A stretch of 64,000 bases of DNA, taken from the NCBI RefSeq assembly GCF_902459745.1, contig NZ_CABPSJ010000002.1, positions 868,001 to 932,000 on the forward strand, read 5' to 3'. Below are positions 17,783 through 49,707 of this stretch, piece by piece (position 1 is the stretch's first letter; every line of letters begins with the position of its first letter). This stretch comes from Pandoraea communis. GTDB taxonomy: Bacteria; Pseudomonadota; Gammaproteobacteria; Burkholderiales; Burkholderiaceae. The notes beneath the pieces are model-generated. The model saw only the letters and a program-made list of their open reading frames with translations, did no database searches and was not told where the DNA came from. Made by a program: the position numbers and the translations under genes.

Positions 17783-20700
17783 CTATCGGTCCTGCCGCAA
17801 CGCCAGGCGTTCCGCGTCGCTCAGACGTGCCCAGAGCGCCGGATCGACCTTCTCGCCCAGCCCTACGATCTGCACCGGGTTTGAGGCGCTGTAGCGCACC
17901 GTCTCGGGCGACAACGGCGAGCGCAGCGGCAAGACCTTACCGGCGTCTGCCCCTGCTTCCGGCGCATTCCCCTGCCCCAACGTACGCACCGTGAAGATCG
18001 ACGGCTGCGATGCACGCGCGGCGCTTCGCTCGCGCTGCACGGCGTCCTGCGCGGCAGAGGCGGCTTGCGCTGCACTGGCGCTCGCGTTGGTGAGTGCCGC
18101 CACGTTCACGCCAGCGATGACCGGAATGCCGGTCGACTTCCCCTGCACCTGGATGTTCGCTGCGTTCACCACTTGCGGCGCCACCAGATTGATGTTCCCC
18201 GATACCCGAATCCCCGCCTCGCCGGCATCGATCGTCCCTAGCGGCGCCAGCAGATCGACGTCGCCCGGCTTCACCTCCGGAATCGGGTTGAGTGTGGCGA
18301 TCCCCGCGCCGGTGCTCGGCACCTGCGGCGACAGTTTCACGTTGCCCCACTGGTCGTATTCACGCTTGGGCGGCGTATAGACGATTGTGGACTTCGAACC
18401 GCGCCCCGCGTTGATATCCCCTTCCGACGACCAGCCAAGAATGCCGCCTCCGAAGGTCGTCATGATCCGGCTCTGGCCGAGCAGAATGCTGCCGCGCGAG
18501 AACATCTCGATATTGCCGCCGCCTTGCGTAAGCACACCGGACTCTGCCGGCGGCGCCGCGCCCTCGATACCGAAGACCTGGCGCCCGCCCGGCGTGAGGA
18601 GTTGAATGCCCCCGCCGTAGTTGGTGCGGATGTAGCCACTGCGCGGGTCATAAATGTTCACCTGATTCTGCTGGTCCCAGATCACCCGATTCCCCCGGAA
18701 GATCAGAATGTCGCCCGCGTACGCCGTGGGATTGCCATTCGCATCGGTGTCCGGGGCAAGCGCGGCAATGGCATTGCGGCTGCGCAGGAAGCTGCCGTAG
18801 CGCGGGCTGGCCGGATCGTTGTACTCGCGCCCGCCAGCCTTGAGTTCGGCGAAATAGACATCGCGCGCAAAAACCCTCTGCTGCTCCGCCGGCAATCCGA
18901 GGTAGTACGCGCGGGCTTCGTCTCCGGTGCCCGAAAAGCCGTAACGTTCGGCCAGCCACGTCGCCAATTCCGCTTCGTAGGTCTTCACGACCTTGCCCGC
19001 CTGATCAGCCAACGGCACGCCGGTGCGCGCCAGATTGGCCGGGTCCAGATAGGGTTTCACGAACTGGAGATAATCCAGCCCCTTGGCACCCACACCCGCC
19101 TGCATGGCGATGCTCGCACCGGGACGCGTATCGGCTGTCGTGACAGGTCCGACGCTGGTCACCGCAGCACGGTCTTCCATCAGAATGTTGCGCCCGGCGC
19201 TGATATCCAGCGTGCCCGGACCGGCGACGTTGAATGAGCTATAGAGAATGTCGCGTCCGGCAGAGACGACCGACACGTCGGTCGCGTTGTTATGAACGAA
19301 CAGATTGCCCGTGTAGCTCAAATCGAAACCGCTTGCAATGGCCCCAGAGCCTCCCTCAAGCAGCAGGTTGCCACTTCGCACGATGTCGCGTCCCGCCAGC
19401 ATCCGGACCGGCTGTGCACCCTCATACCAGGTGCGGCCGCGCCGCGGTTCCCGCTCGAAGAAAGTGCCTGTGCCGGCGAACTTGATGATCCGCCCGGTAC
19501 TCACCCCAACCAGATCACCATCCACGGCATAGAAGAGCGCCGGGATCGCGCCGGCATTCGGTTGCCCCGTCGCAGAATTCGCGTCGAATGCGAACAGCGG
19601 GAACATCCCGAGCCCCGCGCGATTACCGTCGCCAGAAAGATTGGTGGCGTCCGGTGTCTGTGCCATCGACCCACCCACGGGCAGCAACCAGGACAGATAC
19701 GCGGGCCGTTGCGGCGTCGCAATCGCGCGCTTCGACGCCCCGGACTGGCTGACCGTGAAGCCCCCTGCATAGATCGAGTCAGCGGCGAGGAACTGCAACT
19801 GACCACCCGTAGACGACGGTGCCAGCAAGACCGGGAACCCGTCGTTAGTGGTGCCCTGCACGAGCCCCGGCTTACTGTAGTAGAGGCTGCCACTGGCCGC
19901 TACAGCACGCAGCGTCGACGGATACATCACGGCCTCATCCGTCAACGTGCCGACCGAGGTGTTGACCGGCGTGAGGTTGCCGCCCGCGGTGACCATATCG
20001 ATGGCCGTGCGATCCGTCCACAAGGTGAACCAGCTCCAGCCGCTACCGTAAATGCCCGTCTTGCTGATATACGGCGAGGCATAGTCCATTGGAAGCCGGC
20101 CGGGATCGGCGACGTCGTGCGTGACCTGATCCGACAGGGTCGACAGGTTGAACGTCGAATCCCCCGGCACTAACGTGAATCCGCCTCTCATGTCGCCACG
20201 CGTGGATCGGAAGGGATCGAACGCGCGGGTCTCGCCCGCCGTATGTTGTAACCACGCGTTGCCGTAGACGAGGTCGATCGTACCCAGTTGGCCGGCCTTG
20301 ATCTCGGTGTGACCGCGCAGGTTGCTGACCACGCCGTTCGCGTGGTCGAGAGAATTACTGCCAACAGGATTCACCGCGCCGCTCACGCGCAAATCGAGGT
20401 CGCCGCCACCGGTCAACGTCATGCTGCCGTCCGCCGCGACACGGCCGGTGCTCGCAACAGCCAGCACCAGCCCTTGTGGGCGCGGGTTCACCACCTCAGA
20501 GAAACGACTGCCGACAAGCCTCGTCAATTGCCCTGCGTCGCCATCGACCTGCGCCGTCAGATTGCCCCCGCCCAGCGTCCCGAACCCTGTAAAGCCGATC
20601 AGTCGGCTCACGCCCCCGCCAAATGCGCTGACAAAACTGCCGAAGTTGATCCACCACGCCGTCGGTTGCGCCTGGGTGCCGGTGGCCACGCCATCGCTGC

Positions 20701-23700
20701 CCTGACGCCATAACCAGTTGCTGACACTGGCGCTGTCGTACCCGCCGTCGCCCGGAAGCGGCCGCTGGCTGATCCACGCGCTCGGTTGCAGTATCGACCC
20801 CGTCAGATTGCCGCCGACACGCAGCGACAGGTTGCCGCCCTGATCGGGATACCAGGCGCGATACACACTGTCGGCGCCACCGTCGACAAACGCTTCATTG
20901 TTGCCTGCGGGCTCGTTGAGCACGGTGCCGGCCGCACTTCTCGCTCGCGGCAGGTTGTACGGATCATCCGGGCGAGTCTTGGCCGACGACGTACCGGCGG
21001 TGTAGACACCGTACAACGAGTCCATTCGCATGTTGCCGCCACTGAGCAATTCAAGATCGCCCGTGCCAGTGCGCAAGACGCTGAAGCGCTGACTCGTCGC
21101 GTAGTAGTTGTACGTCATGCCCGGCGCGGTACACCACCCCGGGTTCTCATCACACATCGTCGGCCAGCCGAGTTTGACCGGGTCCAGCACGTCACCCACA
21201 TGGAGCGACGGATCGCCCCATTCGTCGATCCCTTGCTGCGTCCACGTATAGCTGACCTTGAGGACGCAATATGCCGGTGAATCCGAGCAGAAATCATCGA
21301 CGGAGGAGTCGACACCCAGCTTTTTGAGCAGGGCCTCGTCGATCTTTTCGCCTGCCACAATGCCGTCAATCCCCAAATCCGCCGCCTCCTGCGTCCAGTA
21401 CTGAACCCCTTTGGGTGGCACACCCTTGCCGTACATGCCGTAGTGGCTGTCTGCCAGCCGCAGGTCCCCATGCACCGGACGCGTTTGTACGATCCGGCTA
21501 TCGGCCGCAGTTGTATCGGCCCCCGCGACCAGCCGCAGCGACCACGACTGAGATCCCTCGGGCAGCATCTGGGCAATGGCCCACGACTTGCCTTGCCGGC
21601 CGGCAATCTCCGGACGCAGCTCGATTGAGTCGACCCCCGCGAGCAGTTTCACGTCGGTACCTGACGGGATCACCGCCCCCGCAGCAAGCGCCTGTGCCCC
21701 GTTGAGCAACACCACGTTTCGTTTCAGATCGCCTTCGCCCGGATCAGGTGTTCCTAGCAACGGCACGCCCTTAGGCCAGAGCATGGCGCGTGCGCTCACG
21801 CCCAACGGCAACACCGAGCCAGGGTCGATCCGGGAATCGGCGGCAAGCGTTACCGACGTCTTCAGCAGCGTGCCAGCCGCAAACAAGACATTGCCCGCGC
21901 TGTCGCGCACGGCGCCCGTGAGTACCGTGCCGGCGGGCAATGTCAGAGGCGCGTCGAGCGTCACTGTCACCGGCATGCGCGTACCGGCCGGTATGACAAC
22001 GCCCTTGATCGGCAAGTCGTAGTTGAGGATCGCCCCGGCGGGGAACGCGGTACCGTCGGCCAGCGTCACGCCCAGCCCCGGCACGACGATGTCGTCTCCG
22101 CCGAAGTTCATGCCCGGCAGCAGCTTCCACCCGTTATCGTCCTTGGTGATCGGCGGCGGCGAGAAGCCATCGTTGATGCTGCCGAAAATATCGAGATTTC
22201 CGCCCGCCCGCACGGTGAGCATGCCCACCTCTCCAGAACCGTAGACGTTGGTCTTCGCCGAGAGCGGATTGAGGCTCGCGTAGCGATAGCCCGACAGATC
22301 GAGGTCACCGCGAACGATCATGTCGCCGTCGGCGGTCTTGCTCACAACCTCCACGCCGGGACGCAAATGCAACGCGCCGAGGTAGTCGGCGTTATTGAGC
22401 CCCGCCATCTTCACGTTCAGCAAATTGCCGTTGGCCAGTGAGTGGTCGATGAAGGTCGTACTGTCTGCGTGCTTGCCGTCCATGTACGCCTGATCGATCA
22501 CCTGATACGGGCGCCCGCCGGCCGCCAGTTCCAGCACCGGCTTGCCGTTCACATCGAGCAGGACGTTGCCATTGGCATCCTTGAGCGTGGCATATGGGGC
22601 GTCGTCGTACCGCTGCATGCCGTTCAGTGCAATGGACTTGGCCCCGCGAATGGTCAGACCGCTGCGAGCGTCGATGGCAACGTCACCGTAGGTGGCGGCA
22701 TCGGCATCGCCCACGCTGCCCTGACTCCCCAGGCGCGGCGCGTTCAGCGTGAGCGTGCCGCGCGGCACGCCGTCGTTCTGCCCCGCTGCCGTGCCGAACG
22801 CCGCATTCGTGCCGTGACGCAAGTCGATCTGTGCGCCACGCCCCAGGGTGAGGGTGCCATTGCCCGAACTGAGTTCGACGATGGCTCGGTTCGGACTGTC
22901 GATGATCTTGCCGTAACTGTCCACGCGCAATACGGTGCTGTGCGCGTCGAGCACTGCAGTATCGGCCAGCGCGAGACCGTTTTTCCCCGCGAGCCGGATC
23001 GACCCGACACGCTCGCCGCTGGCGTCGATCATGCCGGCGATGGTCAGACTGCCGTTATCGACCGACACGTTGACGTCGCCCGCCTTGAGTTCACTGCCGA
23101 TGGTCAGGTCGCCGCGCTTGAGCTGGAAACTGCGCCCGCCGAACACGCCACCGTCGTTCAGCCGCGTGTTGAGCGCCGCGAACTGCGCATCCGGCGACCC
23201 GGCGCCCAGCGATTGCGCACGGATCTCCACTCTGCCCGGCATGAACGGGACCCACGTGCCGGCGGCATCGTAGCGGCCGCTGCTGTTGCCGAGAATCCGG
23301 CCTTCCAAATCCACTTGCCCCGCTGCCGCATCCAGGGCGATGGCCTTTAGCGTGCCCGCGCTGCTGTTGACGGCGGACAGATCGATGGTCGACCCGCCTG
23401 ACTGGAAGATGTTGCCGCCACGGCTCTCCAGCACAACGTCGCCTCCCCAGGTGAATTTGTCGACGTCGAAGAAGCTGCGTTTGCGCCCTGCCAGATCGAT
23501 CTGCGCGGCGTCGGCCAGCGTCAGATCCTTATCGGCAATCAGCGTGAGCTTGCCGCCAGGCAGCACCACGGCCGTCGCCACGCGCAAGCTATCCCCGTGC
23601 AGTGTCAGATCTGCGCCCAGCGCGTCGATATCCCGCGAGCGATCGACCGGCACCGCACCTGCGGGCGCCGCCACGGAAACCGCGCCGCCAGCGGTGATCC

Positions 23701-26700
23701 GGTTCGAGGAACCGGCCGCCCCCGTCATGAGTGGCGTCGTCAGGTTCAGGTTACCGCCGCTGTACTGGAAGCCGCTCAACGCGTCATAGGCGCCCTTTGA
23801 CTGATACACGGACAAACTGCCCTTGTGATTCGACGTCACGCGATCGCTGGCGCTGATGTTGACGTTGGCAAAACCCAGCGCCAGACGGTCGTACGACTTG
23901 ATGCTGCTTGGTTGCGAGAACGGTCCGAAACCGAACTCGAAGCGCTCCGTCTCCAGATTCAACGCGCCGCTGCCGGTGCCTGCCCCGTTGGTGATCACGG
24001 CGCCGGGCTCGCTCTGCGCCCCGCCCCAGATCAAGTTAGCGGTACGGATAGTGGCCGCCGTCGCGGCATTGCCCTGCCCGTAGATGGCCGGCGTGGTGAG
24101 CACCAGACGGCTCAGCACGGATTTGCCGGTTGTCTTGTCGTAGGTATCGAGCGTGACGTCGCCGTAGAAGTTGACGCTGTTCGCCGCGCTCAGTGTCAGC
24201 GTCTCCAATGCCGGGGCACCTGTCGACGTGTCGCCGCGCAGCAGTCGGTCCATCAGACTCTGGTTCATCGCCAGACCGTTCGCGCGAGTACCGTTCGCCT
24301 GCGCTTCGGCAAGCGCTTGCGAGGTACCGACGTTGATGGCGCCCACCGCAAGCGTGAGATTGCGCGTGCCGTAGCGCACAGCGTCGTCGAGCGTGAACGA
24401 GCCGGTCGTTGCGGCAGCGATCGTGCCTTCGGAATAGAGCGTTGTCGTGCCGGTGCATGCGCCACCGGGACAGTTGCCTATCTCGATCCCCCCTCGCGCG
24501 GCAGCACTGGACGGCAAGAGATTCACCAGCCCGTTGGACGCCGCGAGTACATAGCCGTTTGCCTGATAGATGAATCCGTCGTTCGCGTCGTAAGCGACCT
24601 TGCCCCGGCCGAGCGTGTTGATGCCCGCCCCCTGCTCCACGCGAATCAGACCACCCGCGAGCGGATTTCCGGTATTATCCGCCGCCACGAGGAACACCTC
24701 CGGTGCCGACAATATCGCGCCGCTACGCAAATAGAGCTGCTCGGGCATGTCATAGCCGAAGCTGATGTAGTTGCCCCCCTGACCATAGGTTGTCGCTGGC
24801 ATACCGCCAAGCACAATGCGTGACGCGCCGATATTGTTCAGGCTGTCCGCGCGCAGCGTGACGCCCCGGAATCCGGGCGTGGCGTTGGCGTTCGCGGCCA
24901 CGACTTCCAGCGCCTGAATCCCAGCGCTTCCTATCGGCGTCAATACCGACACCGTGCCGCCGTAGCCGCCTTGCGCCGCATCGAAACGGCCCGTGCCATC
25001 GAAACGGAAGGCATTGGCACCGTCGCCCGGCTGTAGCGCCAACTGAAGCGTTCTGGCGTCGACCGGCAACGCGGGACGCGGAATACCGCGCCGCGCCGCA
25101 TCGGCTATCGCGAACGTGGCATAGTCGGTCTCGTTGTATTGCGAGTAGGTACGCAACACATTCGCCGGTGTCAGGATCATCTGGCTGGCAAGACTGTCGC
25201 GAGACCCGGTGCCTGCCGTCGACAGGGTTCCGGAAGCGGACCACGAGCCGTTGCGCATGGCCTGCGCCGATGCGCCCGCGCCTTGTCCCGCACGTCCGTT
25301 GATTTCCACGCGGAACGCGCCCGGCAGCAGCGCGTAAGTCGAAGGCATCAACGTGTAGGTGCCTGCGGGCAGACCGGGCACGCCCGCGCCGATAGTGATC
25401 TGGCGGCCGATGGCCGGATCGCCAGTGCCGCCTGCCGACGGTGCGTAGGCCCTTTGCACGCCAGGAACGATGGCGTAGACCGGGTTGGTCTTCGAATCCG
25501 GCAAGACGAATCCGCCATTCGCACCAACCTGCATCAGCGGATAGAAGCGCGCGTCGGTGGAACCGCCTCGCCCCGACACGAAGCCGGCACCCATGAGGTC
25601 GCCACCGCCCGAAAGGTCGACCAGCGCGCCGCGCTCAACGCTGACCGACTTCCCCGCCAATACCAAGCCGGCAACGCCGCCCGCGCCCTGGAAGGTGACG
25701 TCCTTGCCGTTGTAAGTCCAGCTTTGACCGTCGAGCGTGCCCCCATAGGGCATGGTGAGACCGGCACCACTCACGGATGTCACGCTGCCGGGCAAAAGAC
25801 GGACGGCCAGGCTGTTCGCGCCGTCATAACCCGGTGTGCCAAGCTGAATGCGTCCCAATGGTGCACGGACCACACCGCCCTGTTCCACGTTCGCGGCCAG
25901 CAACGACAGCGAACCGAATGCCGAATACGGGAGCTCCGGAATGACATCAGTGGTGCGTGCGACGCTCAGCTTACGCGCCGGGTCGTAGCCGGCCAGACCC
26001 TTGACAACACTGTAGCCGGCCCTGACCGCAGCACCTGCACCGGTGCCCGGGTACAACTGCGCGGCGCGAAGCGTGATGTCTCCGGGACCGGCCAGCACCG
26101 TGACGGGCTCCCCGCCATTCCAACCGTCGCTGGTGGGCATAAACCGCAAGTCGCCACGGCTGGTCAACTCAATGTTACCGGCGTCGACGGCCACCCTGCC
26201 GCGAACGTCGATGAGGTTGGCTTTCGCATCCAGTTTGCCAATGAGCGGGCGCGGCGCAGGCGTTACCTCGCCCGGGACGACGTACCCGTCCCGAGCATTC
26301 AAACGTGCCTGAGCCAGACGCAGGTACGACGCATCGAGGTGGACGTTCGACGGCGCGGCAGCGCCTTTCGCCGTCGTGAGGCCGCCGTAGATCTGCAGAT
26401 TCTGGTTGAGCTTGAGCGAAACATCGCCAGAAAATCCAACTTGCCCGAGGATGGAAAAGTTATCGAAGCCACCTGCCTCGATCTGTGCCACGGACAATCG
26501 GCCGTACCCATAAGTCAGTGCGGCGGCGGCCTGTGCGGGCGTCAGCATGCCGTGCAAGGGGCCCTCACTCTGGACTTGCTCAACAGTCCATTCACGCGAT
26601 GCAAGCACGCGCTCGGTCGCCGCCTGCTTCAGATAGGCCGCACTCACCTGCGCAACGGAGAATGTGCCCCCCGTCGCACCAGCACCACCGGCAGCCGCTC

Positions 26701-30505: not shown

Positions 30506-30629
30506 CTCAAATCCTGCCGGTAAAGGGTCCATACCACTCGACCGCCCGCCCCGTGCCGGGAAGTCCTGTTCATCGGGGTACGCCGGACACCCACGACGTA
30601 TCGTCATGATGACAACGCAACCCCATGCT

Positions 30630-30669
30630 CAAGGACGAACGGCGAACCCATCCACCCGCAGAATATTTC
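30630..30669 (-). promoter_or_regulatory. Cassette-1 sigma promoter-like motif before giant gene 1
   Basis: Reading the minus strand: GAAATATTCTGCGG (30669-30656), 14 nt, then CGTTCGTCCTTG (30641-30630). The same two blocks at the same spacing occur upstream of the anti-sigma gene at 31808-31848. It lies about 125 nt before the giant gene's ATG. TTCGTC is a plausible ECF -10; the upstream block is either the -35 or an extended element. Confidence 0.65.
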
Positions 30670-30729
30670 GAAGAATTTTTTCTGTAAGAGACAGCGACAC
30701 GACATGGCGGCCACGTCGCTGCGAAGACG

Positions 30730-31807: not shown

Positions 31808-31848
31808 CAAGGACGAACGATCCCCCTGGGGAACCGCAGATTATTTTC
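31808..31848 (-). promoter_or_regulatory. Cassette-1 sigma promoter-like motif before fecR1
   Basis: Minus strand: GAAAATAATCTGCGG (31848-31834), 14 nt, CGTTCGTCCTTG (31819-31808). It sits directly after the sigma gene stop codon and about 86 nt before the anti-sigma start. It matches the motif before giant gene 1 block for block. Confidence 0.68.
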
Positions 31849-31849
31849 A

Positions 31850-33084: not shown

Positions 33085-33271
33085 CTTCTGTCGCGCGCCC
33101 GTCCAAACACCAAGGGCCGCGTGAACCAAACCTTTGGCAAATGCGAGTCAGATTACTTGTCCGACATGAAATTTCGGTGACAAACGGCATTGCGCGCCGT
33201 GTTTTAAGGTCTGCAAAAAGTTCGTGGGCCGAATGGAATCTTGACAGCTACGGGTAGCGGGTAAAAGCAAA

Positions 33272-34810: not shown

Positions 34811-34820
34811 CCATGCCGGC

Positions 34821-40800: not shown

Positions 40801-43800
40801 ACCGACAGCCCATTGAAGCCCGGCGTCACATCGCCCGTCGTAATCTCGCCGATGTTGAGCACGGCCACCTGCCCCGCGACACCACCGGCCGCAGGCTGGA
40901 ACAGTGCCTTGCCGTTGAATGACAGCACACTCGTCGACGGCATCGGGTCCGGCGCATACGGCACGTCGAAGGTGAACCCGAGCCCCTTGCCGTCGCGGGG
41001 CAGCATGGGCGCCAGGCCGCCGAACTGCCGGATCTGCGCGGTCATGAAGTCGGCGTAGCTCTGCTCGTTGTACTGCGAGTACTTGCGCACCGCCGTGCCG
41101 GGCGTGACGAGCACGGTCGAGGGCAACTGGCTGCGTGCAGATGTGTTGGCGATGCTCGTGTAACCGGACACCAGATACGTGCCATTACCGGCAGCCGTCG
41201 CAAGCGCAGGCAGGTGCTGTCCGGTGCCGCCGATTTCGACGCGGTACGCACCCGGCAACAACGCGTAGTTCGACGGCAGCAGCGTGTACGTCCCTGCGGG
41301 CAGGCCGGGCACGCCGTCACCGATCGTGACGCGTTGCCCCACCGCAGGATCGCCCGCGCCATTCTCTGCGGCGATGGGGGCGTAGGCCGACGTGTAGCCC
41401 GGCACGATGGCATACACCTTGTCGCTCGCTTTACTGAGCTTCATCGTCGGGTTAGCGTTCACCAGCGGCGTGTTGAGCACGTTGACAGAGCCGCCGCGCC
41501 CCGAGACGAAGCCTGCCCCCGCAATCGTGCCGCCGCCCGACAGGTCGAGCACCGCTCCGCTGTCGACGCGCATCGTTAGCCCTTCGAGCGAAATGCCCGA
41601 GCCGCCTGCGGTATAGGTGAGCCCGATGCCGTTGCCGATGAGCGGGGCAAGCGCCGTACCGTTGTACGTGTAGGTCACACCGTCGACAGTTCCGCCATAG
41701 GGCACGGTCATGCCGTCCATTGCCACGGACGTCAGACTGCCGGGCAGGAACTCGATGTCCTTGGTGTAGACACTCGCGCCTTGCAGCGCGGCCGTCGTCG
41801 GGCCGATCAGCAGCTTGCCGAACGGCGCACGCAATACGCCCCCCTGACGCACGTTCGGGGCCGACAGGAACAGCATGCCGAAGACGGACAGCGGTGCGTC
41901 GGGTGTGACAGCCGTGGTGCGCCCGAGGGTCAGCGTGCCCGCGAAGTCGCTGTTGCGCTGCTGCCCCGCGACGATGTTCGCCACCGCACCGGTGGTCGGA
42001 TACACCTGTGCGGCGTCAAGGTCCATATCCCACGAGGTGATCAACGTGGTGCCCTGCTGCATCGAGGGCGTCGGCAGGAAGCGAATGTCGCCCTGGCTGA
42101 CGAGGCGCGTGTTACGGAAGCCTGGCGACGACGTATCGACGTTGACGTAGTTCACCGAGTCGTAATAGCTGCTGTACGACGAGAAGATCACCGGCCCTTG
42201 CACGTCGATGAGGTTGGCATCGATCTCGAACGTCGCCGTCGTCGGACGCCCCGAGGCGCCGGGATTCGCGATCGAACCGCTGCGTACCCCGTCCGGCGGC
42301 GCAACGCGCGTGCCGCTCAGCAGGACATACGGGGCCGCCAGACGCACCGTATTGCCGGTAGCCTTCGCGGCCGGATCGTCACCCGCCACCAACTGCTCGC
42401 CGGAGGTATAGGCGTTGGCGTTGAGCTTGAGGCTCTTGTCGAGGGCGAGCGATACGTCGCCCTTGAACATCATGTAATCGCCTGACGTTAGCGAGAGCGA
42501 GCTGAAGCCGCCGCCCTTGACCATGTCGGCGCTCACGCTCGTGCGGCCCAGGGGCAACGCCGCGACCGGTGCACCCGGGCCGCTCAGGTCGGGGGCCTCC
42601 GGGCGCGACTGCGTCACCGTGAGTGTGCTCGGCACAAGCACGCTGCTTGGTATCAGACCCGCCTGATCCGGGTAGAACGGCGTGAGCATCGACACGGACA
42701 GGTCGCCGCCAGAGGCACCGGCGCCGCCGGAGAACGCGTGCAGATTTCCGTCGAGATAGCTGCCTGCGAAGGAACTCACGGCAATCGCGCCGCCGTTGGA
42801 CACGCGCGACATACGGCCGCTGGCGTTGGCCGGTTGGCCCGTCACCGTTGCTGTGTCGACCAGCACGCTAGCGCCATCGGCATTGAGCTCCGCCCCCGGA
42901 CGAATCACGACGAACGACGTACCGCCACTCAGGTTGATCGTGCCGCCGTCGAACACGGTGCCGTAGGTGCGTCCATTGGTGTCAAGTGCGGTATAGCCGA
43001 GTCCCGAGACATCGAGCTTCGCGTTCGGGCCGAGCCAGAGCGAGGTGCCGCGAACGACGCCGTTCTCGTCGAAGTTGCGCGACGTGGGGAACGCGCCATC
43101 GGCGTCGCCGATGAGATTGATCTTGCCCGCACGTGCGTTCAATGCGCCGTCGACCGTGATCTGACCGAAGCCGTCGAGCGTGATGCTCTGTCCCGGATCG
43201 ACCGTGATCGACGCCCCCGGTGCGATGGCGACGGTGCCCCCCGACGGATTGCCTTGTTCGTCCTTGGTCAGCGAGCGCAGCGCGATGCTCGCGCCCGCGC
43301 GTTGCGAGATCGTATCGGTCTGCGGGTTTTCCGCGAACAGCGGCGGCGTCCACAGAGCCAACGCTTTCGACGGATCGCTGCCGGTCACGGCCTTCATACT
43401 GTCGGCCGTGAAGCGGTAGACGGGCATGACCGGCGCGAGGGCCACGCCGTTGTCGACGCGCACGCCGTGTCCGCCATTGATGTCGTAGTTGGCGAAGCCC
43501 GCGTTGAACAGCGAACTCCCGCTGCCCGATGTGCCCGTGTTGAAGGTCGGCACTGGCGTGACGGCGATCGTCTGCGCGAGCGACGTGCCTGCAGGCAGGA
43601 TGGCCCCCACGTCGTAGGTCTTCGGCACCGACACCACCGAGCCTGCGGCAAAGACGAACTGATAGGGATTGACCGGTACGCCGTTCGGGAAGACGTTCGA
43701 CGGCACGACCGTACCCTTCAGGAACACTCCGTTGCCGCCCCAACCGGAGAGAACCGTCCCTGCCGGAAGCGTATCTCCGGCGAAGTAGTAGACGTCCTGG

Positions 43801-46800
43801 TTGTTGAAGTCCTTCGACTTGAGAATGAGCCCCGTCGGCACGATCCAATCCATCAGCGTCGCGCCGACCGGCACCGCAGACATCGTGACGTCGACCTGTA
43901 ACGGCGTGTCGTAGACCATCGTCGTGTGCTTTTCAACGAGATCCATCGGTAACGGCGTCCCTGCGGGGATGGTCAGCGTCTGGGCGAGCTTCACCGACAC
44001 CGGGGCTGGCGTGCCTGCCGCAAGCGTACCGCCCGCTACACCGGCGCTATTGCCGATCAGGATGCTGTCGGGGGTGGACAGCGTCAACGTGCCGCCGCCG
44101 TTCACGCCGTAGGCCACCACGGTGCCGTCGAAGGTCAGCGTGCCGACGCTCTTGCCGACGATACCGTCGCCCGCGATCAGGGTCACGTTACCGCCCGTGC
44201 CGCCCTTCGTCTTGCCGCCCGCAAGAATAGCGCCGCCCGAGGACACATCAATCACACTGCCGCTGCCGATGGTCAGGTCGCCAGTCGAATCGAATGTGAC
44301 GCTGCCGCCGTTGAGATAGGTGACCTGCGACGTGGTATCCGGGTCGAGCGCGGCGTTCACCCAGACGCCGCGTGTGCTGATGCGGTAGCCGGGCGCCAGC
44401 GTCAGGTGCACGGCACCGTCGGCCGGGAGCAGTACGGTGGCATACTGATCGCCAGCTTTGAGGAACTGATTGGCAATCGCGACCGTGCCGCTTGGCGCGA
44501 AGAGGTTGGCCATCACGTCGACGGAAGGCGCCGACAGCGCCAGACGTCCGCCGTTGTCGAGTTGAAGATCGGAGCGCACGCCGATGGTACCGGCCGTCAC
44601 CAGATCGATCTCGCCGAAGCGTGTCTGATTCAATCGTGAGGCATCGAGCCACACTGTGTTCTTGCGGGTATCCGTGAGCGTGTCGCCCACACTCATCCCG
44701 TTGGTGATGTCGTTGATGTCGCCGATCACGACATCCGTCGCGAAGGCCCCTGTGCGGCCCACGCCCGTGTACTGGCCAAGCGTAAGCGAACCGGCACGCG
44801 GTACGGCGAACTGGCTGAGGGTGTAGCCGTCGGTGAGCCCGGACGGACGTGCCTGCGTCTGCACCGGGCCGGTGTAGACGTTGGCGACCACATCGCCCTC
44901 GAGCACGGCCGTCGGTGCCGAGATCGACAGCCGGCCCGCGTCGCGCCCGACCGTGTAGCCGTTTTGCAGCACGCGCGTAGGCGCGATGAGCGGGCTGGCG
45001 TACGACTCGGTCAGGTTCTTGCCCCAACGCCGGTGCTCCACCTCGAAGCCGTTATAGACACCCGTATAGAGCACGTTCGATGGCGCAGTGTTGACGTTGT
45101 AGAGCTGACCGTCTACGCCCTTGAGCCACGTATGATTCAGATAGCCCGTCTGCACATTGAGCGAGCCGCCCGACAGGTTGATGAGCGCCCCCTTCTGCGT
45201 CACCACCTCGTTGCCGCCAATGGTCACAGTGCCGCCCTGCGCGGCCCACTCGCCAATGCCGTGCGTCTGATTGGCCAGATAGCCACCAACTTCCAGCAAA
45301 CCTCCGGCGGTGTACCAACGCTCGTTCGCGTAGCCCCCCACGGACGCCGGAACGTAGATCAGACGCCGGCGGTCGATGTAGACGTTCGCATTGTTCAGTG
45401 CCGTGTTGTCGCGGTTGCCCGGTGCGTCGCGCTGCTCGTTGCCTTGCACGTTGATCTTGACGTTGTTGCTGTCCATCGACAGCGACACGCCGACCGCGCC
45501 TGAAACATCCAGTTGTGCCCCGTTTGCCACGAAACTGCGACCCGTGGCGCTCACCGCCAGTTGGCCACCGGTCGCGAGCGTGAGCGAATTGCCCTGAAAC
45601 TCGACATTACCGCCGCTCACGATCTCGACGCGCGATTGATCGCGACGATCCGAGAGTCTCGACAAGTTGTCGAACAGTCCGGACGACATGCCGGCGCGCA
45701 GGCTGTCCTGTTTTGCGGAATCCTGCATCAACGCGGCACGTTGGCTGTCGAGCGCCGTCGCCCCGTTGTCGCTGATGAGCACCGACGTCAGCGCACCACT
45801 GCCCAACGTCACCTTGCCCAGCGTGTCGCTCGCCGAGTTCAGCAGGTGAATCGTGCCGCGTGTGTTCACCGTCGTGGTCGACACCGCCGTGCCCAACTGC
45901 TGCACGTCGCGGCCCGCTAGCGTGATGTCGCCTTCCGGGGACATCAGCAAGCCGCTGTTCACCACCTTGCCCGCCGTACTCTGTGCCACGAACTGCGGCG
46001 ACACTTCGTTACCGCGGGTGGTCGACGGCGTGTTCGCGTCCGTGCCCACGCCCTTGCGTATCACGAAGCTGTCGCCTGCGGCCAACGCCACCTGTCCTTG
46101 CGGTGCGACGATCGTCCCCGCGTTGCTCACCTGATTGCCCAGCAGCAGCACGTAGCCACCGCCTTGCGTCACCGACGTCGGCGTGCGCGTCGTGATATTC
46201 GCCCCCGCCTGCACTTCGACCTTGCCCAGCGCATCGGTGAACGTCGGCGTCGTGCCGTTCGCGCCGTAGATCCCGTTCATCTGAAACTGCGCGTCGCTCA
46301 TGCGAGCCGCCGCGACCACCAGATTGCGCGTATCGACCTGACTCGTGCCGCCGAAGATCACACCGTTACGGTTCAGGACCAGTACGGTGCCGTCGCCGTG
46401 AATCTGCCCCTGAATCTGGCTCGGACGCGCTTGCGGATCGTTCACACGATTCAGCACCGCCCAGTCGCTTTGCTGTGCGAAGTTCACCGACGTGTTGCGC
46501 CCGACGTTGAACGTCTCCCAGTTCAGGATTGCCTTATTGGCCGTTTGCTGGATGTTGACGTGGGTCTTGCCGTTGGCGCTCGTCTGCGTCGGCGCTTGAG
46601 CGTTGATCCAGCCCTTGGTCAGGCTGTTCGTGTCGACCTTCAGGCCGCCTTCGGTCAGGCCATCGGGGATGGTCGTATCGCTGCTCGCCGCTGCCGCGCG
46701 CGCATTGGCTTGTGCGGCCTGCATTGCCGCGATGTTCTGTGCGGCCGAACTCAGGTTCGCAATCGAGCGCTGCAACTGCGCGTTGGCCTGTTGCTGCTGC

Positions 46801-47063
46801 GCCGTGGGGTCCATCAGCGACGTGACCGGCATGCCGTTCGGCAGACGCCCCGTTTGCGACGCCGTTGCCTGTGCGGCACCGCGGGCGGCAAACCATGCGT
46901 TGCTGAACGCCTGTTGCGCATGCGCTGCCCCCATCGTGGTGAGAAGCAGCGTGATTGCCTGAGCAACGGGGGCCACCCTGCGTGAACGGCGCTTACGTCC
47001 TATGCCGTTTCTGCAACCGCTGCTCTGCATTGCCGTTGCCCCTTCGCGTCCACGCATGCTCAT
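34821..47063 (-). CDS. Giant filamentous-haemagglutinin-type exoprotein 2 (TpsA-like)
   Basis: A 4080-aa product from ATG 47063, with GAGG upstream and an extended signal peptide ending at AHA (47-49). It is closely parallel to exoprotein 1 at the N-terminus (QQAFS..WFAARGAAQ, GRLPNGMPV.SL, LNWETFNVGRNT, DWAVLNRVNDP, NRNGVIFGG, DTRNLV). A long beta-helix-like repeat region and a DUF3739-like C-terminal part follow. The two end in a common pattern, VDP..(L/W)ARL(T/S)D.ER.AL. The middle regions differ in length and sequence, so the pair is an old duplication. No TpsB gene is adjacent. Confidence 0.85.
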   Translation of the reverse strand: MSMRGREGATAMQSSGCRNGIGRKRRSRRVAPVAQAITLLLTTMGAAHAQQAFSNAWFAARGAAQATASQTGRLPNGMPVTSLMDPTAQQQQANAQLQRSIANLSSAAQNIAAMQAAQANARAAAASSDTTIPDGLTEGGLKVDTNSLTKGWINAQAPTQTSANGKTHVNIQQTANKAILNWETFNVGRNTSVNFAQQSDWAVLNRVNDPQARPSQIQGQIHGDGTVLVLNRNGVIFGGTSQVDTRNLVVAAARMSDAQFQMNGIYGANGTTPTFTDALGKVEVQAGANITTRTPTSVTQGGGYVLLLGNQVSNAGTIVAPQGQVALAAGDSFVIRKGVGTDANTPSTTRGNEVSPQFVAQSTAGKVVNSGLLMSPEGDITLAGRDVQQLGTAVSTTTVNTRGTIHLLNSASDTLGKVTLGSGALTSVLISDNGATALDSQRAALMQDSAKQDSLRAGMSSGLFDNLSRLSDRRDQSRVEIVSGGNVEFQGNSLTLATGGQLAVSATGRSFVANGAQLDVSGAVGVSLSMDSNNVKINVQGNEQRDAPGNRDNTALNNANVYIDRRRLIYVPASVGGYANERWYTAGGLLEVGGYLANQTHGIGEWAAQGGTVTIGGNEVVTQKGALINLSGGSLNVQTGYLNHTWLKGVDGQLYNVNTAPSNVLYTGVYNGFEVEHRRWGKNLTESYASPLIAPTRVLQNGYTVGRDAGRLSISAPTAVLEGDVVANVYTGPVQTQARPSGLTDGYTLSQFAVPRAGSLTLGQYTGVGRTGAFATDVVIGDINDITNGMSVGDTLTDTRKNTVWLDASRLNQTRFGEIDLVTAGTIGVRSDLQLDNGGRLALSAPSVDVMANLFAPSGTVAIANQFLKAGDQYATVLLPADGAVHLTLAPGYRISTRGVWVNAALDPDTTSQVTYLNGGSVTFDSTGDLTIGSGSVIDVSSGGAILAGGKTKGGTGGNVTLIAGDGIVGKSVGTLTFDGTVVAYGVNGGGTLTLSTPDSILIGNSAGVAGGTLAAGTPAPVSVKLAQTLTIPAGTPLPMDLVEKHTTMVYDTPLQVDVTMSAVPVGATLMDWIVPTGLILKSKDFNNQDVYYFAGDTLPAGTVLSGWGGNGVFLKGTVVPSNVFPNGVPVNPYQFVFAAGSVVSVPKTYDVGAILPAGTSLAQTIAVTPVPTFNTGTSGSGSSLFNAGFANYDINGGHGVRVDNGVALAPVMPVYRFTADSMKAVTGSDPSKALALWTPPLFAENPQTDTISQRAGASIALRSLTKDEQGNPSGGTVAIAPGASITVDPGQSITLDGFGQITVDGALNARAGKINLIGDADGAFPTSRNFDENGVVRGTSLWLGPNAKLDVSGLGYTALDTNGRTYGTVFDGGTINLSGGTSFVVIRPGAELNADGASVLVDTATVTGQPANASGRMSRVSNGGAIAVSSFAGSYLDGNLHAFSGGAGASGGDLSVSMLTPFYPDQAGLIPSSVLVPSTLTVTQSRPEAPDLSGPGAPVAALPLGRTSVSADMVKGGGFSSLSLTSGDYMMFKGDVSLALDKSLKLNANAYTSGEQLVAGDDPAAKATGNTVRLAAPYVLLSGTRVAPPDGVRSGSIANPGASGRPTTATFEIDANLIDVQGPVIFSSYSSYYDSVNYVNVDTSSPGFRNTRLVSQGDIRFLPTPSMQQGTTLITSWDMDLDAAQVYPTTGAVANIVAGQQRNSDFAGTLTLGRTTAVTPDAPLSVFGMLFLSAPNVRQGGVLRAPFGKLLIGPTTAALQGASVYTKDIEFLPGSLTSVAMDGMTVPYGGTVDGVTYTYNGTALAPLIGNGIGLTYTAGGSGISLEGLTMRVDSGAVLDLSGGGTIAGAGFVSGRGGSVNVLNTPLVNANPTMKLSKASDKVYAIVPGYTSAYAPIAAENGAGDPAVGQRVTIGDGVPGLPAGTYTLLPSNYALLPGAYRVEIGGTGQHLPALATAAGNGTYLVSGYTSIANTSARSQLPSTVLVTPGTAVRKYSQYNEQSYADFMTAQIRQFGGLAPMLPRDGKGLGFTFDVPYAPDPMPSTSVLSFNGKALFQPAAGGVAGQVAVLNIGEITTGDVTPGFNGLSVNAASLNAIGAPRLSINGTVGPIDGVFVFQTSPQANDLYVRDGVTLSAGEIYLVGNNLNIGNGVTLTTIGRGPATFDTASTGMLFSPGTATVLGLSNGDIQFLGSSQSAGSINIGAGSGLYAEGTLAFATNGASNIDDSARFGARNIALAVGTLNVGDAAQVAAAGNPAGVVFNQSVLNTLLQGDPTHGAPALQRLTLSTANSINLFGSNGLDTRGTGVNLVLNASAIYGVGAVGDQAVVAADRITWNGVQGVGAPAIAAGGPGTGNGSLQFIAKEIDLGHVETLDTSNVTRTIYGFNDINFAASDRVVSAGRGALYVYQAPGTQAGDVFGQSGTGGNLTLTTPLLTGAAKSIMNYTAGGTLSVVAPAGAAPATATTTVAGAEIDLSGNNVNLGSTVLLPSGKLAVDAANDIVLDGISRIDLSGQPTVIQTATAYGFGGTASFRSAQGNLRQLAGSVVDVSAKQADAGTVSFDAAKGTLSLGGSLLGKADDGFTSGAFGATAGTFADFGGLNALLTQGGFFASRSFDQKLGDLVVGNGVKAHSIGISADGGTLTVNGSVDASGAAPGTIRLSGGNGLTLGSSAVLDAHGTILQVDSYGAPIEAKNRGHVELTAAGGTLTLAPGAAIDVSTPGAKHYGDIILNAMRTAETSGDIAIDAAGPLTIRGADSVALNGVWTYTLPSGSVITQSTMDGYDAASTAFIDTATGNGALTARTAGLAAYGNVYHLRPGVQIASLGDLATSGDIDLAKYRYGSGADRNPSSATYGAGEPMALVLRAGGNLRVDGSISDGFMGTAAGAPVFSAVTPTTFSTDTAHFAKQGSLLWRLLPSNVMEVSDSAGWVVPTLNTGGALPAPFRPMSADGTTYATGAVIPYGTKLTKLYVPVGAETSAANSLKLQTDPGSPAASATSARATMLAPGMRSASLRLVAGADLAGADQRALLPVAALGGSGNLTLSDSVYDPSQTGTFFSVLRTGTGGLDLLAGGSFSEATPYGVYTAGTQAAPILAADGHNPYNLPGIATGNLLQAWYTEHGGDLLLQAQQDVTGNIQMTNNPLRYVNSNLVGNWLNRQGGGGATTDPTAWSINFGSLAKTDAYTTGLQLIGFQGIGTLGGGNLTVIAGRDAGVTSATAGGLVSTGLDLAVASTGRVLADGSLVQTGGGDLTLKVGGMLNGAPPIAAAGFLRDYYGSLSALRGNTSVNAGSVGSIAVETGGVNWTTYDPRASDPNAIKLTSRTKGPTVLTGDGIANVTARGDLVLGGAGDAGMSILTDIAGGYYTNASGAVTKSGFTKFSLWTPSTALNLLSAGGDVAPLSGASGSDRQNALGFYPGSLSVASLNGDIRFGDGSIELMPSPVGQLRVLSAGSIYGGGLSIAMSGADYASVATPGHPFFASLDGFSLTTLTNASINAGTRINSASPLAFGEDYPSGNLHAQDATPAQIYAGIDIDDLQIGMSVIRNRTASSGFIPDHGIWYVAAKPFEVIAGRDIVGTGTVPSTFLNQSASDVSLMQAGRDIIYQSASIVGPGLLQVQAGRNVYQGYYGQLQSIGDVTHPANANGGAGVSVLAGVGANGPDYTRFARLYFDPANQLASGAPLADSGKVVHAYGDELVTWLQSRFGYQGAPSDALAYFLALPQKQQGVFVRDVYFKELLLGGREYNDATSPRYGSYLRGREAIATLFPTSDAQGKPITYDGAITLFSSVTGSTTVNGKPVPVTTDATVSTNFGGAIQMLNPGGRTLVGVEGVTPGANAGVVTQGEGDIQLYSRDSILLGLSRVMTTFGGSIQAWSAQGDINAGRGAKTTVLYTPPKRVYDDSGNVTLSPSVPSSGAGIATLAPLPEVPPGDVDLVAPLGTIDAGEAGVRVSGNVNFAALAVVNAANVQVQGKSTGLPVIAAVNVGALTNASATAAQAASAAQDAVARERVAQRQNTPSIFSVRMLSTGAGANDGTGGSDTPPASRVRGTLGYDPSSLLQLVGSGNHVDPRQLARLTDEERRALNTH

Positions 47064-47170
47064 GCCCGAATCCTCGCTAATAGTTGATCGTTCCCGGCAA
47101 ACTCGCCATTGGCGTCCCGTCGGAAACGTGCACATCGCCGCTTTTGGCGTTGTGTTGGCTTCCCGAGTCG

Positions 47171-47211
47171 CTAAGACGAATGGGTATTGCGAAAACCCTC
47201 AACTATTTCCC
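47171..47211 (-). promoter_or_regulatory. Cassette-2 sigma promoter-like motif before giant gene 2
   Basis: Minus strand: GGGAAATAGTTGAGGG (47211-47196), 13 nt, CATTCGTCTTAG (47182-47171). TTCGTC is shared with cassette 1. The TTGAGGG block is shared only with the fecR2 motif. It is about 108 nt before the ATG. Confidence 0.6.
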
Positions 47212-47302
47212 GATCATCGATACCTGCGAAATGCCGTCGTCGAATCGATCAACGCTGCGTGCTGCACGCAGCCAGATGGCGGCACTTCCGCACAAGAGAC
47301 CG

Positions 47303-48304
47303 TCAGCTCAGAATCAGCAGTCCTCCCGGCAATGACCTGGCATTCAGATCGAATGTGCTCTCCAGTTGTGATAGCGCGGCGTCGAGCGAAGCGATGCGGA
47401 AACGTCCCGTTACCCGCTGATTTCGGGCGGCCTCGCTCACGAGCACGACGCGCCCGGCGCGATAGCGATTGATCTCGGCGACGACATCGACAAGGCGAAT
47501 CTGGTCGAACACCAGTTCGCCTCGGCGCCATGCGCTCACCGCTTGTGCATTGACGTTGCCGACATCGCTAATCACGTGGTCGTTGTAGGCCACCTGCTGA
47601 CGCGCCTGCAAGGCGCGCTTGCCTGCCGGATGGGAGACCTGCACCGAGCCGTCGATGCACGTGACACAAGCTTTGCCATCGAGATACCGCACTTCGAAGC
47701 GTCCGTCATGCGCGCGAGCGCTGCCCGCGCCCGCGGACATCGTAAACGGTTCGGCCACCCCCCCCAGATCGACGGCGGCCTCGCCAGAGAGCAGCGTCAT
47801 GCTCACCGTTTTGCCGTTGTGCACGCTTTGCCGGATGCGGGTCTGCGTGTTGAGCGTGACAACGGTCTGTGCCGCCAGCGTCAGCGTGCGTTGCTCGCCC
47901 ACGGCGGTACGTTCGTCGCCCCCCCATGGGTCCGGCAGGGTGCGGCGAAACACGTCCGGATAGAACCCTGCGACGGCCGCCGCCGCCCCTACTGCCACCG
48001 CGCCGCCGATGAACGCACGACGCCCCGCCGAGGGTTGCCGCCGTGCAGGACGAGCGGGCGCCGGTGCCGGAATCGCATTCGGATGCCGATCGGCATACAT
48101 GCCGCTTGCCGTGCGCAGTGTCGCCCAGCGGTGCTTCACTGTGTTGAAGGCCGCCTTGTGATCGGCGCTCGTGTCGAGCCAGCGACGAAAGGCTTGTGCA
48201 TCGACTTCGGTCACGTCACCGGAATCCAGCAGCCGCAGCCAGACGCGCGCCTGCCGTTGCAGGTCGTCCGAAGAGGAGGCTGAATGAGTGTCGCGTGTAT
48301 TCAT
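47303..48304 (-). CDS. FecR/VreR-type anti-sigma factor 2
   Basis: A 333-aa protein with the same layout as the first copy: an N-terminal sigma-binding domain, a Pro/Ala/Arg linker, twin-arginine-like GRRAFIGG (Arg95-Arg96), a membrane helix, then a FecR domain with TAVGEQRTLTL and SGEAAVDL. The CVTC pair is at 213-216 and the C-terminal STN-like domain ends SLPGGLLILS. Conservation of CVTC in both anti-sigma factors suggests a structural or redox role. It partners the sigma gene immediately upstream. Confidence 0.88.
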   Translation of the reverse strand: MNTRDTHSASSSDDLQRQARVWLRLLDSGDVTEVDAQAFRRWLDTSADHKAAFNTVKHRWATLRTASGMYADRHPNAIPAPAPARPARRQPSAGRRAFIGGAVAVGAAAAVAGFYPDVFRRTLPDPWGGDERTAVGEQRTLTLAAQTVVTLNTQTRIRQSVHNGKTVSMTLLSGEAAVDLGGVAEPFTMSAGAGSARAHDGRFEVRYLDGKACVTCIDGSVQVSHPAGKRALQARQQVAYNDHVISDVGNVNAQAVSAWRRGELVFDQIRLVDVVAEINRYRAGRVVLVSEAARNQRVTGRFRIASLDAALSQLESTFDLNARSLPGGLLILS

Positions 48305-48390
48305 TGCGTCAAAATGGGCGCCATGCCAAAGGCAGGCAATTTAGCGGTATCGATGTCGCGGAACTGCGCATCTCCGGATGCCGCCAATGT

Positions 48391-48430
48391 GTGGACGAAC
48401 GGCACCCCTCAAATCCCTCAATTATTTTTT
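48391..48430 (-). promoter_or_regulatory. Cassette-2 sigma promoter-like motif before fecR2
   Basis: Minus strand: AAAAAATAATTGAGGG (48430-48415), 13 nt, CGTTCGTCCAC (48401-48391). It overlaps the last codons of the sigma gene, the same arrangement as in cassette 1. Confidence 0.62.
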
Positions 48431-48934
48431 GGCTTTCAGTTTCTCGTCCAGAAAATCGTGTGCACGGCGCAACTCGTTCTCGACAACGCGCAGCGAAACC
48501 CCCAGGCGCTCGGCCACGGCTTTTTGAGGCAATCCTTCCCATCGAACCAGTAACAGCACCTGACGACGCCGTTCAGGCAGCCGCTCCATCAATTGCATGA
48601 GGGCATCGAGTTCCGACCGATCTTCCGCAACGCGTGCGGGGCCGGGCGCCGTGTCCGACAGATGCATCAACGTATCGACCTCGTCGAACGAAAGCGAACG
48701 GCTTTGCTTGCGCTGTGCGTCGAGCGCGATATTGACGGCCACACGTACCAGATAACTGCCCGGGCTCTGTACCGTCTCGCTCGCTCCCGGCTCCTGCGTT
48801 TGCAGCTTGACCCAGGCGTCGTGCAAGGCGTCGCCCGCCAGATCGCTGTTGCCGAGCAGGCGTGTGAGACGGCGCTTCAGATTGTGGTAGTGCCGGGTGA
48901 GGTACTCGGGCAGGGGTCTGACATTCTCGGTCAT
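48422..48934 (-). CDS. FecI/VreI-type ECF sigma factor 2
   Basis: A 170-aa product from ATG 48934, overlapping the STN-gene stop (ATGA). Sigma-2 shows KRRLTRLLGNSDLAGDALHDAWVKL and sigma-4 shows ERRRQVLLLVRWEGLPQKAVAERLGVSLRVVENELRRA. It is similar to sigma 1, but its recognition helix has V-VENELRRA instead of T-VESDLKRA. This fits the different upstream block of its two predicted promoters. Confidence 0.9.
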   Translation of the reverse strand: MTENVRPLPEYLTRHYHNLKRRLTRLLGNSDLAGDALHDAWVKLQTQEPGASETVQSPGSYLVRVAVNIALDAQRKQSRSLSFDEVDTLMHLSDTAPGPARVAEDRSELDALMQLMERLPERRRQVLLLVRWEGLPQKAVAERLGVSLRVVENELRRAHDFLDEKLKAKK

Positions 48935-49707
48935 GAATGACCGTCCTTGCCCTGCGACCGGCAAACGGGGGATGCGTCGGCGTGGTCAGGGTCGCGTGGC
49001 AGCAACACCATCGTCAGCGGTTGCGCCAGATCCGGAGGCGGCGCGCCGTCAATGCGCACAGTTGCCAGCACCCCGAGCACAGCAGCATCGCGCCTGCGCT
49101 CTCCGGTCGATGTCAGTAGACGGGCCTGACGCAGAGTCCCCGTCGCATCGATCTCGAAACGCAGCAGCGTTCGGTATTGCCCCGGCCGGGTGAGCGTATT
49201 GGCACAAAGCGCAGCCCAGACGCCCGCCTGCACCCGGCCGGCATAGGCAGTGGCCGGCGCGTCGTAGCTCGGCGACGACGACTCGGTCGTCGACGCCTTG
49301 AGTACGAACGCTTCTGCGGGACCCGTCCGGGCGCGCTGGACGGTGAGCCCCGAGCCCGTCAGCAAACGCTCCAGCGCGGTGTCGGCCGGAAGCTCGCCGT
49401 GTACGGGCGATGAGGTGAGGCCGGCCACCTGAGCACTGCTAAAGAGAGCGGGACGGCCGGAGATCATGGCGTAACGTTGCAGGGCATCGGCCAGTGGCTG
49501 CGCAGGAATATCGAAGAAGAACGACTTGGGTTCGGCGCCGGACTTCGGCGTTTGTTGCACGGTGATTGCCGGCACGGCAGACCGTCCGGGCTCACCGTCG
49601 GCACCGGCGAAGGCATCGACCGGCGCACTTCGCGCGGGCGTCGTCCCCACGCTCAACACCAGTAGCAGCCCCCCACAGCGGCGTAGACCAGGCAAGTACA
49701 GACGCAA
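48931..49707 (-). CDS. Exported STN plus TonB-C-like signalling protein 2 (VreA-like)
   Basis: The frame opens much further upstream, but coding character starts near TTG 49707, which has GGGAG about 9 nt before it; this gives 258 aa with a signal peptide (LRRCGGLLLVLSVGTTPARSA). An STN domain (FDIPAQPLADALQRYAMISGRPALF...ALERLLTGSGLTVQRA) is followed by a TonB-C-like domain (PGQYRTLLRFEIDATGTLRQARL). It is parallel to protein 1, including a Cys in WAALCANTLTRPG and one near the C-terminus. The start is tentative; no ATG in frame is well placed. Confidence 0.72.
   Translation of the reverse strand: MRLYLPGLRRCGGLLLVLSVGTTPARSAPVDAFAGADGEPGRSAVPAITVQQTPKSGAEPKSFFFDIPAQPLADALQRYAMISGRPALFSSAQVAGLTSSPVHGELPADTALERLLTGSGLTVQRARTGPAEAFVLKASTTESSSPSYDAPATAYAGRVQAGVWAALCANTLTRPGQYRTLLRFEIDATGTLRQARLLTSTGERRRDAAVLGVLATVRIDGAPPPDLAQPLTMVLLPRDPDHADASPVCRSQGKDGHS

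Follow-up and report, generated by a model that had tools for sequence, protein, structure and literature searches.

The PUMA3 system of Pseudomonas aeruginosa (VreA-VreI-VreR with PdtA/PdtB), as outlined in the cited passages of three reports (PMC2729926, PMC4971064, PMC7035377), combines a protein carrying an STN domain and a TolA/TonB-C domain without a beta-barrel, an extracytoplasmic function (ECF) sigma factor, a FecR-type anti-sigma factor, and a giant TpsA exoprotein as target. According to a passage of PMC4971064, the vreAIR genes form one operon that is transcribed with PhoB. Repeated PUMA3 clusters were reported in 2009 for Rhodopseudomonas palustris and Janthinobacterium in a section of PMC2729926, and TpsB transporters with several substrates are described in the relevant parts of a report on Burkholderia BcpB (PMC10449530) and of a review (PMC5422565). 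Here we analyze two PUMA3-like cassettes, W1 (type B) and W2 (type E), each ending in a giant gene, in a 64,000-nucleotide stretch of the Pandoraea communis genome (contig NZ_CABPSJ010000002.1, positions 868,001 to 932,000; hereafter the window). We consider it quite likely that each cassette is a self-contained PUMA3-type switch for one giant, with private promoters and one TpsB shared among the giants.

Domain searches for STN, TonB-C, FecR, and DUF3739 confirmed that both cassettes consist of an STN/TonB-C protein, an ECF sigma factor, a FecR anti-sigma factor, and a giant with a two-partner secretion (TPS) domain and DUF3739 (Table 1); the two minus-strand gene sets proposed in the first-pass annotation, made from the sequence alone, are therefore real. 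Its suggestion of kinship with PUMA3 was borne out as well. In both VreA-like proteins an STN domain is joined to a TolA/TonB-C domain and a beta-barrel is lacking, and a structure model (entered for the cassette 2 protein) confirms the two-lobed form. The sigma factors possess regions 2 and 4 only, and their genes lie beside those of the FecR-type anti-sigma factors. The periplasmic domain of the cassette 2 FecR protein matches the PupR CCSSD (6ovk_R, E 1.5e-10), and the STN domain of the same cassette matches PupB, the partner of PupR (6ovk_B, E 7e-4). Each giant has a TPS domain at the N-terminus and DUF3739 near the end, and the last ~400 residues are 60% identical between the two; neither window giant has the variable C-terminal toxin region of CdiA/BcpA contact-dependent inhibition proteins. 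A structure model of the DUF3739 end (predicted local distance difference test, pLDDT, 35) was not used.

The gap between the sigma and FecR genes measures 127 bp in cassette 1 and 117 bp in cassette 2, and each holds a sigma-type promoter motif. In both window cassettes and in many relatives, this gap and the FecR-giant gap share one motif, a TTGnGG-like element followed by a CGTTCGTC-like element. The motif model was trained on the same 136 gaps (from 68 cassettes) that it scored. Of these, 90 scored above the 99th percentile of Markov-shuffled controls, comprising 36 upstream of anti-sigma genes and 54 upstream of giants; both gaps passed in 31 cassettes. The first promoter pairing dropped cassettes below the motif threshold, keeping 31 of 68, which were collapsed to 21. 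Within genomes, the two promoters of one cassette agreed at 12.77 of 20 columns on average versus 10.01 for cross pairs (p 5e-5; a test on 48 cassettes from the 14 genomes that carry at least two, without three cassettes that have no companion in their genome), and type-level pairing of anti-sigma and giant promoters gave p 0.001 for nine types. The resemblance is located in the -35 block (p 2e-4) and the -10 block (p 2e-4) and is absent from the spacer (p 0.56), and hence does not reflect a local copy. These paired motifs are predicted to be promoters that are read by the sigma factor of their own cassette and drive tpsA.

The W2 form of the motif (TTGAGGG-N14-16-TTCGTC) has exactly two matches in its own 5.7 Mb genome, both at the W2 sites, versus none for the control. 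At the exact spacing of 15 it occurs twice per genome in all five genomes with type E, and at least two other matches, in genome G004, are among the matches listed. The W1 form is less exclusive, with four matches in its own genome, two of them at the cassette, and one match for the reversed-pattern control, and the loose joint pattern also matches many unrelated places across 32 genomes. Over 37 of 51 rows (those passing the motif threshold), the giant promoter tracks the sigma factor (partial r 0.495, p 5e-4) but shows no such relation to the passenger (partial r 0.025, p 0.36). The cassette-specific promoter pairs thus support the earlier proposal of one sigma factor per giant. Upstream of the STN genes there is overall no convincing sigma motif (median score 6.8, near the control median of 5.6), although single cassettes reach scores of up to 18.0 (type D). 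Despite the predicted promoter of its own, FecR may also receive transcription read-through from the upstream genes.

On the export side, an ortholog of a single TpsB (89-100% identical) is present in one copy in all 17 genomes with intact giants, which have from one to six of them, and in none of the 15 others. One shared TpsB therefore probably secretes all giants. None of the five POTRA_2 places of the source genome lies on the window's contig; one ortholog of the co-occurring TpsB is encoded on contig C11. The tpsB gene on C11 is followed by genes for a DUF2341/LamG/ExbB protein, ExbD, a TonB-like protein, Porin_5, a coiled-coil protein, and YbjN, of which the TonB-like (no Pfam match) and coiled-coil proteins were assigned by eye. 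In 15 of the 17 genomes the type A fecR gene lies downstream of the tpsB start at a distance of ~10 kb. Two genomes, G021 and G016, keep the DNA of the TpsB operon (~84% identical to C11) and lack the type A cassette between recognizable flanks, while giants are encoded elsewhere in these genomes (five in G021, one in G016). In other genera, one close TpsB ortholog (55-69%) was found in each of the nine genomes reached; Cupriavidus basilensis, for example, combines one such ortholog with five giant loci.

The source genome contains four STN places, four FecR places, and five DUF3739 places. Its four cassettes comprise the two in the window, one on C11, and one that appears to be split over two contig ends, C8 with STN-sigma-FecR and C10 with a giant; the two parts were joined because the C10 giant clusters with giants found behind C8-type regulators. 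Among 32 Pandoraea genomes, 18 gave a total of 56 DUF3739 matches, four of them fragments or orphan ends. The remaining 52 include four in the source genome and 48 in other genomes, and of the latter cassettes 47 have the complete STN-sigma-FecR-giant order and one is cut by a contig end. Sigma and FecR proteins sort into identical nine types, and STN proteins do likewise except that type G is split (thresholds of 70% for sigma, 60% for FecR, and 55% for STN, chosen without a preset rule). Two cassettes of one type never occur in the same genome (none of the 70 pairs formed by the 51 typed cassettes, versus 16.7% expected from type frequencies). Type I giants group with E and C at the N-terminus and with E at the C-terminus, whereas type F giants group with A. 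Between the type F giants of two genomes (L161 and L164) the middle is mostly 56-77% identical and the first 750 residues 92-98%, unlike in type A. The wider set comprises 80 loci with a TPS domain; STN, sigma, and FecR matches were found at 64, and at four others the contig breaks off after a FecR fragment. No STN, sigma, or FecR gene was found within 2.2 kb of locus L066 or within the 5-10 kb examined around 11 Pseudomonas loci. Separately, contig C6 of the source genome carries an orphan giant C-terminus of 1324 residues without a TPS domain (L022, 9895-13869), which is nearest to type C giants (64%) and is possibly a silent donor for recombination; the open frames listed for G003 include one of equal length.

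Within a genome, TPS domains that belong to different types resemble each other more closely than expected (74.7 versus 73.15%, p 0.001), whereas the C-terminal ends of the giants show no such excess (66.19 versus 66.14%, p 0.36). The clearest conversion tracts join types C and D in two genomes, where ~1.2 kb at ~100% DNA identity begins ~0.2 kb into the open frame of the giant and extends across the TPS region. Outside these tracts, identity is 30-64% upstream and mostly 30-60% past ~2.4 kb (0-61% in gapped stretches). Around the C-E and A-F tracts, the passengers are 48-84% identical. The excess comes from pairs among C, D, and E and from A-F pairs; type B of W1 is uninvolved, and the TPS domain of W2 is nearest to a type C giant. 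Judged from these alignments, secretion domains are homogenized between paralogues in some genomes, with promoters and passengers left unaffected.

In the comparison across genera, the three regulators sigma, FecR, and STN agree with each other (r 0.74-0.79, with five of the 56 tree rows dropped for the correlations), whereas the passenger departs from their pattern (r 0.11-0.19). The nearest passenger relatives are from Janthinobacterium for W1 (L065, 63%) and from Bordetella for W2 (L055, 54%). In the regulator tree (56 rows, after dropping 18 near-duplicate loci and 28 of the 51 Pandoraea cassettes), Variovorax L062 joins W1, and Cupriavidus L076 and L072 join W2. A phylogeny had been suggested as a check of a joint history of all four proteins, and such a history did not hold, since the giant passengers differ in history from the regulators.

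As for the input, pho-box-like sites upstream of the STN gene reach the 95th percentile of the control in 40 and surpass the 99th in 28 of the 51 cassettes. They occur in eight of the nine types, with type C mostly just below the control threshold, and at least one input is therefore probably common, even if each cassette may sense a cue of its own, as the first-pass annotation proposed. The FecR-giant gap reaches the 95th percentile in 16 of 51 cassettes (all 15 of type A and W1) and never exceeds the 99th, W2 being below. Cysteines are conserved on both sides of the predicted STN-FecR contact. Cys145 of STN is present in 51 of 51 and Cys226 in 50 of 51 proteins (residue numbers of the first row of the STN alignment), and in the 'CVTC' motif of FecR the second cysteine is present in 56 of 56 and the first in 50 of 56 proteins; one iron-type FecR that was checked lacks the motif. 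We regard these cysteines as a lead, no more.

Sequence comparison establishes the architecture, the paired cassette-specific motifs, the co-occurrence with one TpsB, and the homogenization of TPS domains; the mechanism that we propose for them is as follows. Low phosphate, acting through PhoB, would probably turn on transcription of the STN and sigma genes, and the FecR anti-sigma factor would hold the sigma factor. The periplasmic STN/TonB-C protein would bind the periplasmic domain of FecR as PupB binds PupR, either transmitting a signal or protecting FecR. Once a signal removes FecR, the freed sigma factor would read its private promoter code, which is present twice in its own cassette: upstream of its own anti-sigma gene, as a predicted negative feedback, and upstream of its own giant. 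Since sigma types would read different -35 and -10 elements, the cassettes would be insulated from each other. The giants would leave through one shared TpsB that is encoded once per genome together with ExbB, ExbD, and TonB-like genes, usually at the type A locus.

More tentatively, and at somewhat less than even chances, the family may work as a switchboard of three modules, in which the regulators co-evolve with their twin promoters, gene conversion maintains a uniform TPS domain since all giants pass through the one TpsB, and passengers move from switch to switch across genera. If so, anti-sigma feedback could lead to pulsed, cassette-specific display with giants competing for one exporter, and this display might be read out by the conserved periplasmic cysteines. 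Conversion could instead be a neutral by-product of the most conserved stretch of the giants, an explanation that is silent on the shared TpsB and that we likewise rate as plausible but short of even. It gains from the fact that conversion needs similar sequence and that the A-B, D-G, and C-I pairs have no clear excess. However, the conserved DUF3739 end shows no within-genome excess, as given above, and the tracts start inside the giant open frame, sparing the promoters.

The first-pass annotation inferred a duplicated and diverged system, which can be read as one joint local duplication. In its strongest form, this would be a recent tandem duplication, still diverging, with extensive cross-talk between the two sigma factors, and it fits the distance of 1.7 kb between the cassettes, their common strand, and W1-W2 identities (sigma 55%, FecR 48.5%, STN 49%) that are higher than with either of the remaining two cassettes in this genome. 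Yet the regulators of W1 and W2 fall into the separate clades described above, and a tree constrained to hold both types in a single clade is rejected by a log-likelihood difference of 135, for a group that was named after the tree had been seen. Moreover, the -35 elements differ, and among the three genomes that hold both types the cassettes are side by side in the source genome only. The joint duplication is thus rejected by the tree and the one-clade test and strongly disfavored, and the version with cross-talk is very improbable. Redundancy of the sigma factors, with a loosely shared TTGnGG/CGTC promoter and giants co-expressed under phosphate starvation as one coat, is unlikely, though less so. 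The similar motif frame in most cassettes, the nearly invariant GTC of the -10 block, the pho-box-like sites in most cassettes, and a motif that does not separate types F and H all agree with it; on the other side stand the excess of own over cross pairing within genomes, located in the blocks and not in the spacer, and the absence of any genome with the same type twice.

Another alternative concerns the STN protein, which could serve to shield FecR, in the manner proposed for FoxA/FoxR, rather than as a sensor, with the signal acting on FecR itself, for example via the periplasmic cysteines. We hold this to be possible while leaning against it, and it is a serious rival, since VreA is reported in a passage of PMC7035377 to be dispensable for activation of sigma-VreI in P. 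aeruginosa. A signalling domain that protects its anti-sigma factor is described in part of PMC11637429, and the near-invariant cysteines of FecR and STN would suit such a scheme, although they may only form structural disulfides and the control is one iron-type FecR. Several observations also weigh against self-contained switches with private promoters and a shared TpsB. The dispensability of VreA raises the possibility that the STN protein has no activating role as a sensor. A cassette's own partner promoter is ranked first in four of the nine types only (A, B, E, and H), second in F, where the anti-sigma promoter fits the H giant promoter better than F's own, and fifth to seventh in C, I, D, and G. 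No convincing anti-sigma promoter was detected in types D and I and in one of the two G cassettes, and no giant promoter in type G. Upstream of TpsB there is no convincing sigma motif (scores 10.6, 13.0, and 9.0 versus 13.4 for the 99th-percentile control), and additional, distant TpsBs (at most 30% identity), present in most genomes, could contribute to secretion. Finally, the pho-box-like sites are predictions from a general consensus, and 11 of the 12 type C cassettes fall just below the pho-box threshold. With these points included, we still favor one insulated switch per giant and a common TpsB.

Table 1. Features of the two cassettes in the window
Feature	Position	Strand	Remarks
STN + TonB/TolA-C periplasmic VreA-like protein, cassette 1 (W1, type B)	32353..33084	-	STN domain match 32755-32868
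ECF sigma factor, cassette 1	31850..32356	-	ATGA overlap with STN gene
Predicted sigma-dependent promoter 5' of anti-sigma gene, cassette 1	31811..31842	-	Motif
FecR-type anti-sigma factor, cassette 1	30730..31722	-	Periplasmic Cys-x-x-Cys
Predicted sigma-dependent promoter 5' of giant 1	30633..30664	-	Elements identical to those at 31811-31842
Giant TpsA-like exoprotein 1	17783..30607	-	4274 aa as listed, start codon uncertain; TPS 29294-30046, DUF3739 18119-18451
Pho-box-like repeat 5' of cassette 1 STN gene	33166..33183	-	Score 21.4 versus control 95th percentile 19.1
STN + TonB/TolA-C periplasmic VreA-like protein, cassette 2 (W2, type E)	48931..49707	-	Start codon uncertain; STN match 49333-49446
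ECF sigma factor, cassette 2	48422..48934	-	ATGA overlap with STN gene
Predicted sigma-dependent promoter 5' of anti-sigma gene, cassette 2	48393..48423	-	Begins at sigma stop codon
FecR-type anti-sigma factor, cassette 2	47303..48304	-	Periplasmic part matches PupR CCSSD
Predicted sigma-dependent promoter 5' of giant 2	47174..47204	-	Motif
Giant TpsA-like exoprotein 2	34821..47135	-	4104 aa as listed, start codon uncertain; TPS 45828-46598, DUF3739 35148-35480
Pho-box-like repeat 5' of cassette 2 STN gene, weaker	49838..49855	-	Score 20.1 versus control 95th percentile 19.1

Beyond the cassettes, an NmrA-like gene, on the opposite strand, lies behind giant 2, where a CdiA/BcpA system would have its immunity gene. 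The window also contains genes of a filamentous-phage (inovirus) prophage at 3557-10104 on the plus strand (virion protein, TspB-like, Zot-like, a pIV-like secretin, and a rolling-circle Rep), together with an integrase (13535-14629, minus strand) beside tRNA-Arg(CCT) (14767-14841). A Gly-rich protein of 2078 residues with ILAQSIGGGGG repeats is encoded at 53963-60199 on the minus strand. Its C-terminus is barrel-like by eye and the protein resembles an autotransporter, yet it has no Pfam match at E 0.001. Genes for a LuxR-type response regulator and a 7TMR-DISM kinase adjoin it on the opposite strand.

Compared with the iron-related systems FecA-FecI-FecR and PupB-PupI-PupR, as treated in the cited part of PMC7186176, the contact partners of STN and FecR are recognizable in the window, FecR by sequence and STN by sequence and fold. 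Unlike these systems, the window cassettes have no TonB-dependent barrel, and their target is an exoprotein rather than iron uptake. In Burkholderia, the BcpB report describes, in the passages cited, several transporters alongside several BcpA proteins, while Pandoraea has one TpsB ortholog with up to six giants, and this TpsB persists without a neighboring giant in two genomes.

The likeness to PUMA3 extends, within the cited accounts, to the pho-box-like sites upstream of the STN gene and to the type A locus on C11, where the order tpsB, ExbB, ExbD, TonB-like, porin, coiled coil, YbjN is that of PA0692-PA0698. The window differs from PUMA3 in having no TpsB on its contig, no ExbBD or Hxc gene among the open reading frames scanned, and giant genes directly behind FecR, and Pandoraea genomes have several divergent cassettes. 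Since vreAIR is described as a single operon in P. aeruginosa, the predicted feedback promoter of the window anti-sigma genes is a further difference. In Variovorax (L044, L048, L051, L057, L059, L061, L064, and L088) the motif is above the threshold in the giant gap and missing from the sigma-FecR gap, and Janthinobacterium loci such as L065, L070, and L073 also have it upstream of the giant and not in the sigma-FecR gap; these cassettes may represent a feedback-free, VreAIR-like version.

Closest in multiplicity are the clusters of R. palustris and Janthinobacterium, with four PUMA3 copies of which three are followed by tpsA and one by tpsB-exbBD (PMC2729926). As published reports of repeated PUMA3-tpsA clusters date back to 2009, multiplicity itself is not new; the passages of that report on these clusters describe no promoter code, feedback, domain conversion, or passenger exchange. 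We found no paper on DUF3739, or on Pandoraea with two-partner secretion, in the open-licence literature, and as far as these searches show, the twin promoters, the anti-sigma feedback, the strict co-occurrence with one TpsB, the TPS conversion, and the passenger exchange appear to be new. The evolutionary picture is one of an export signal that is kept uniform while its surroundings diverge. Work on PUMA3 in P. aeruginosa has dealt with one system, whereas the Pandoraea paralogues offer natural replicates with differing promoter codes and passengers and one probable exporter, a family that could reveal the role of VreA-like proteins, the promoter specificity of ECF sigma factors, and whether one TpsB limits which giant is displayed.

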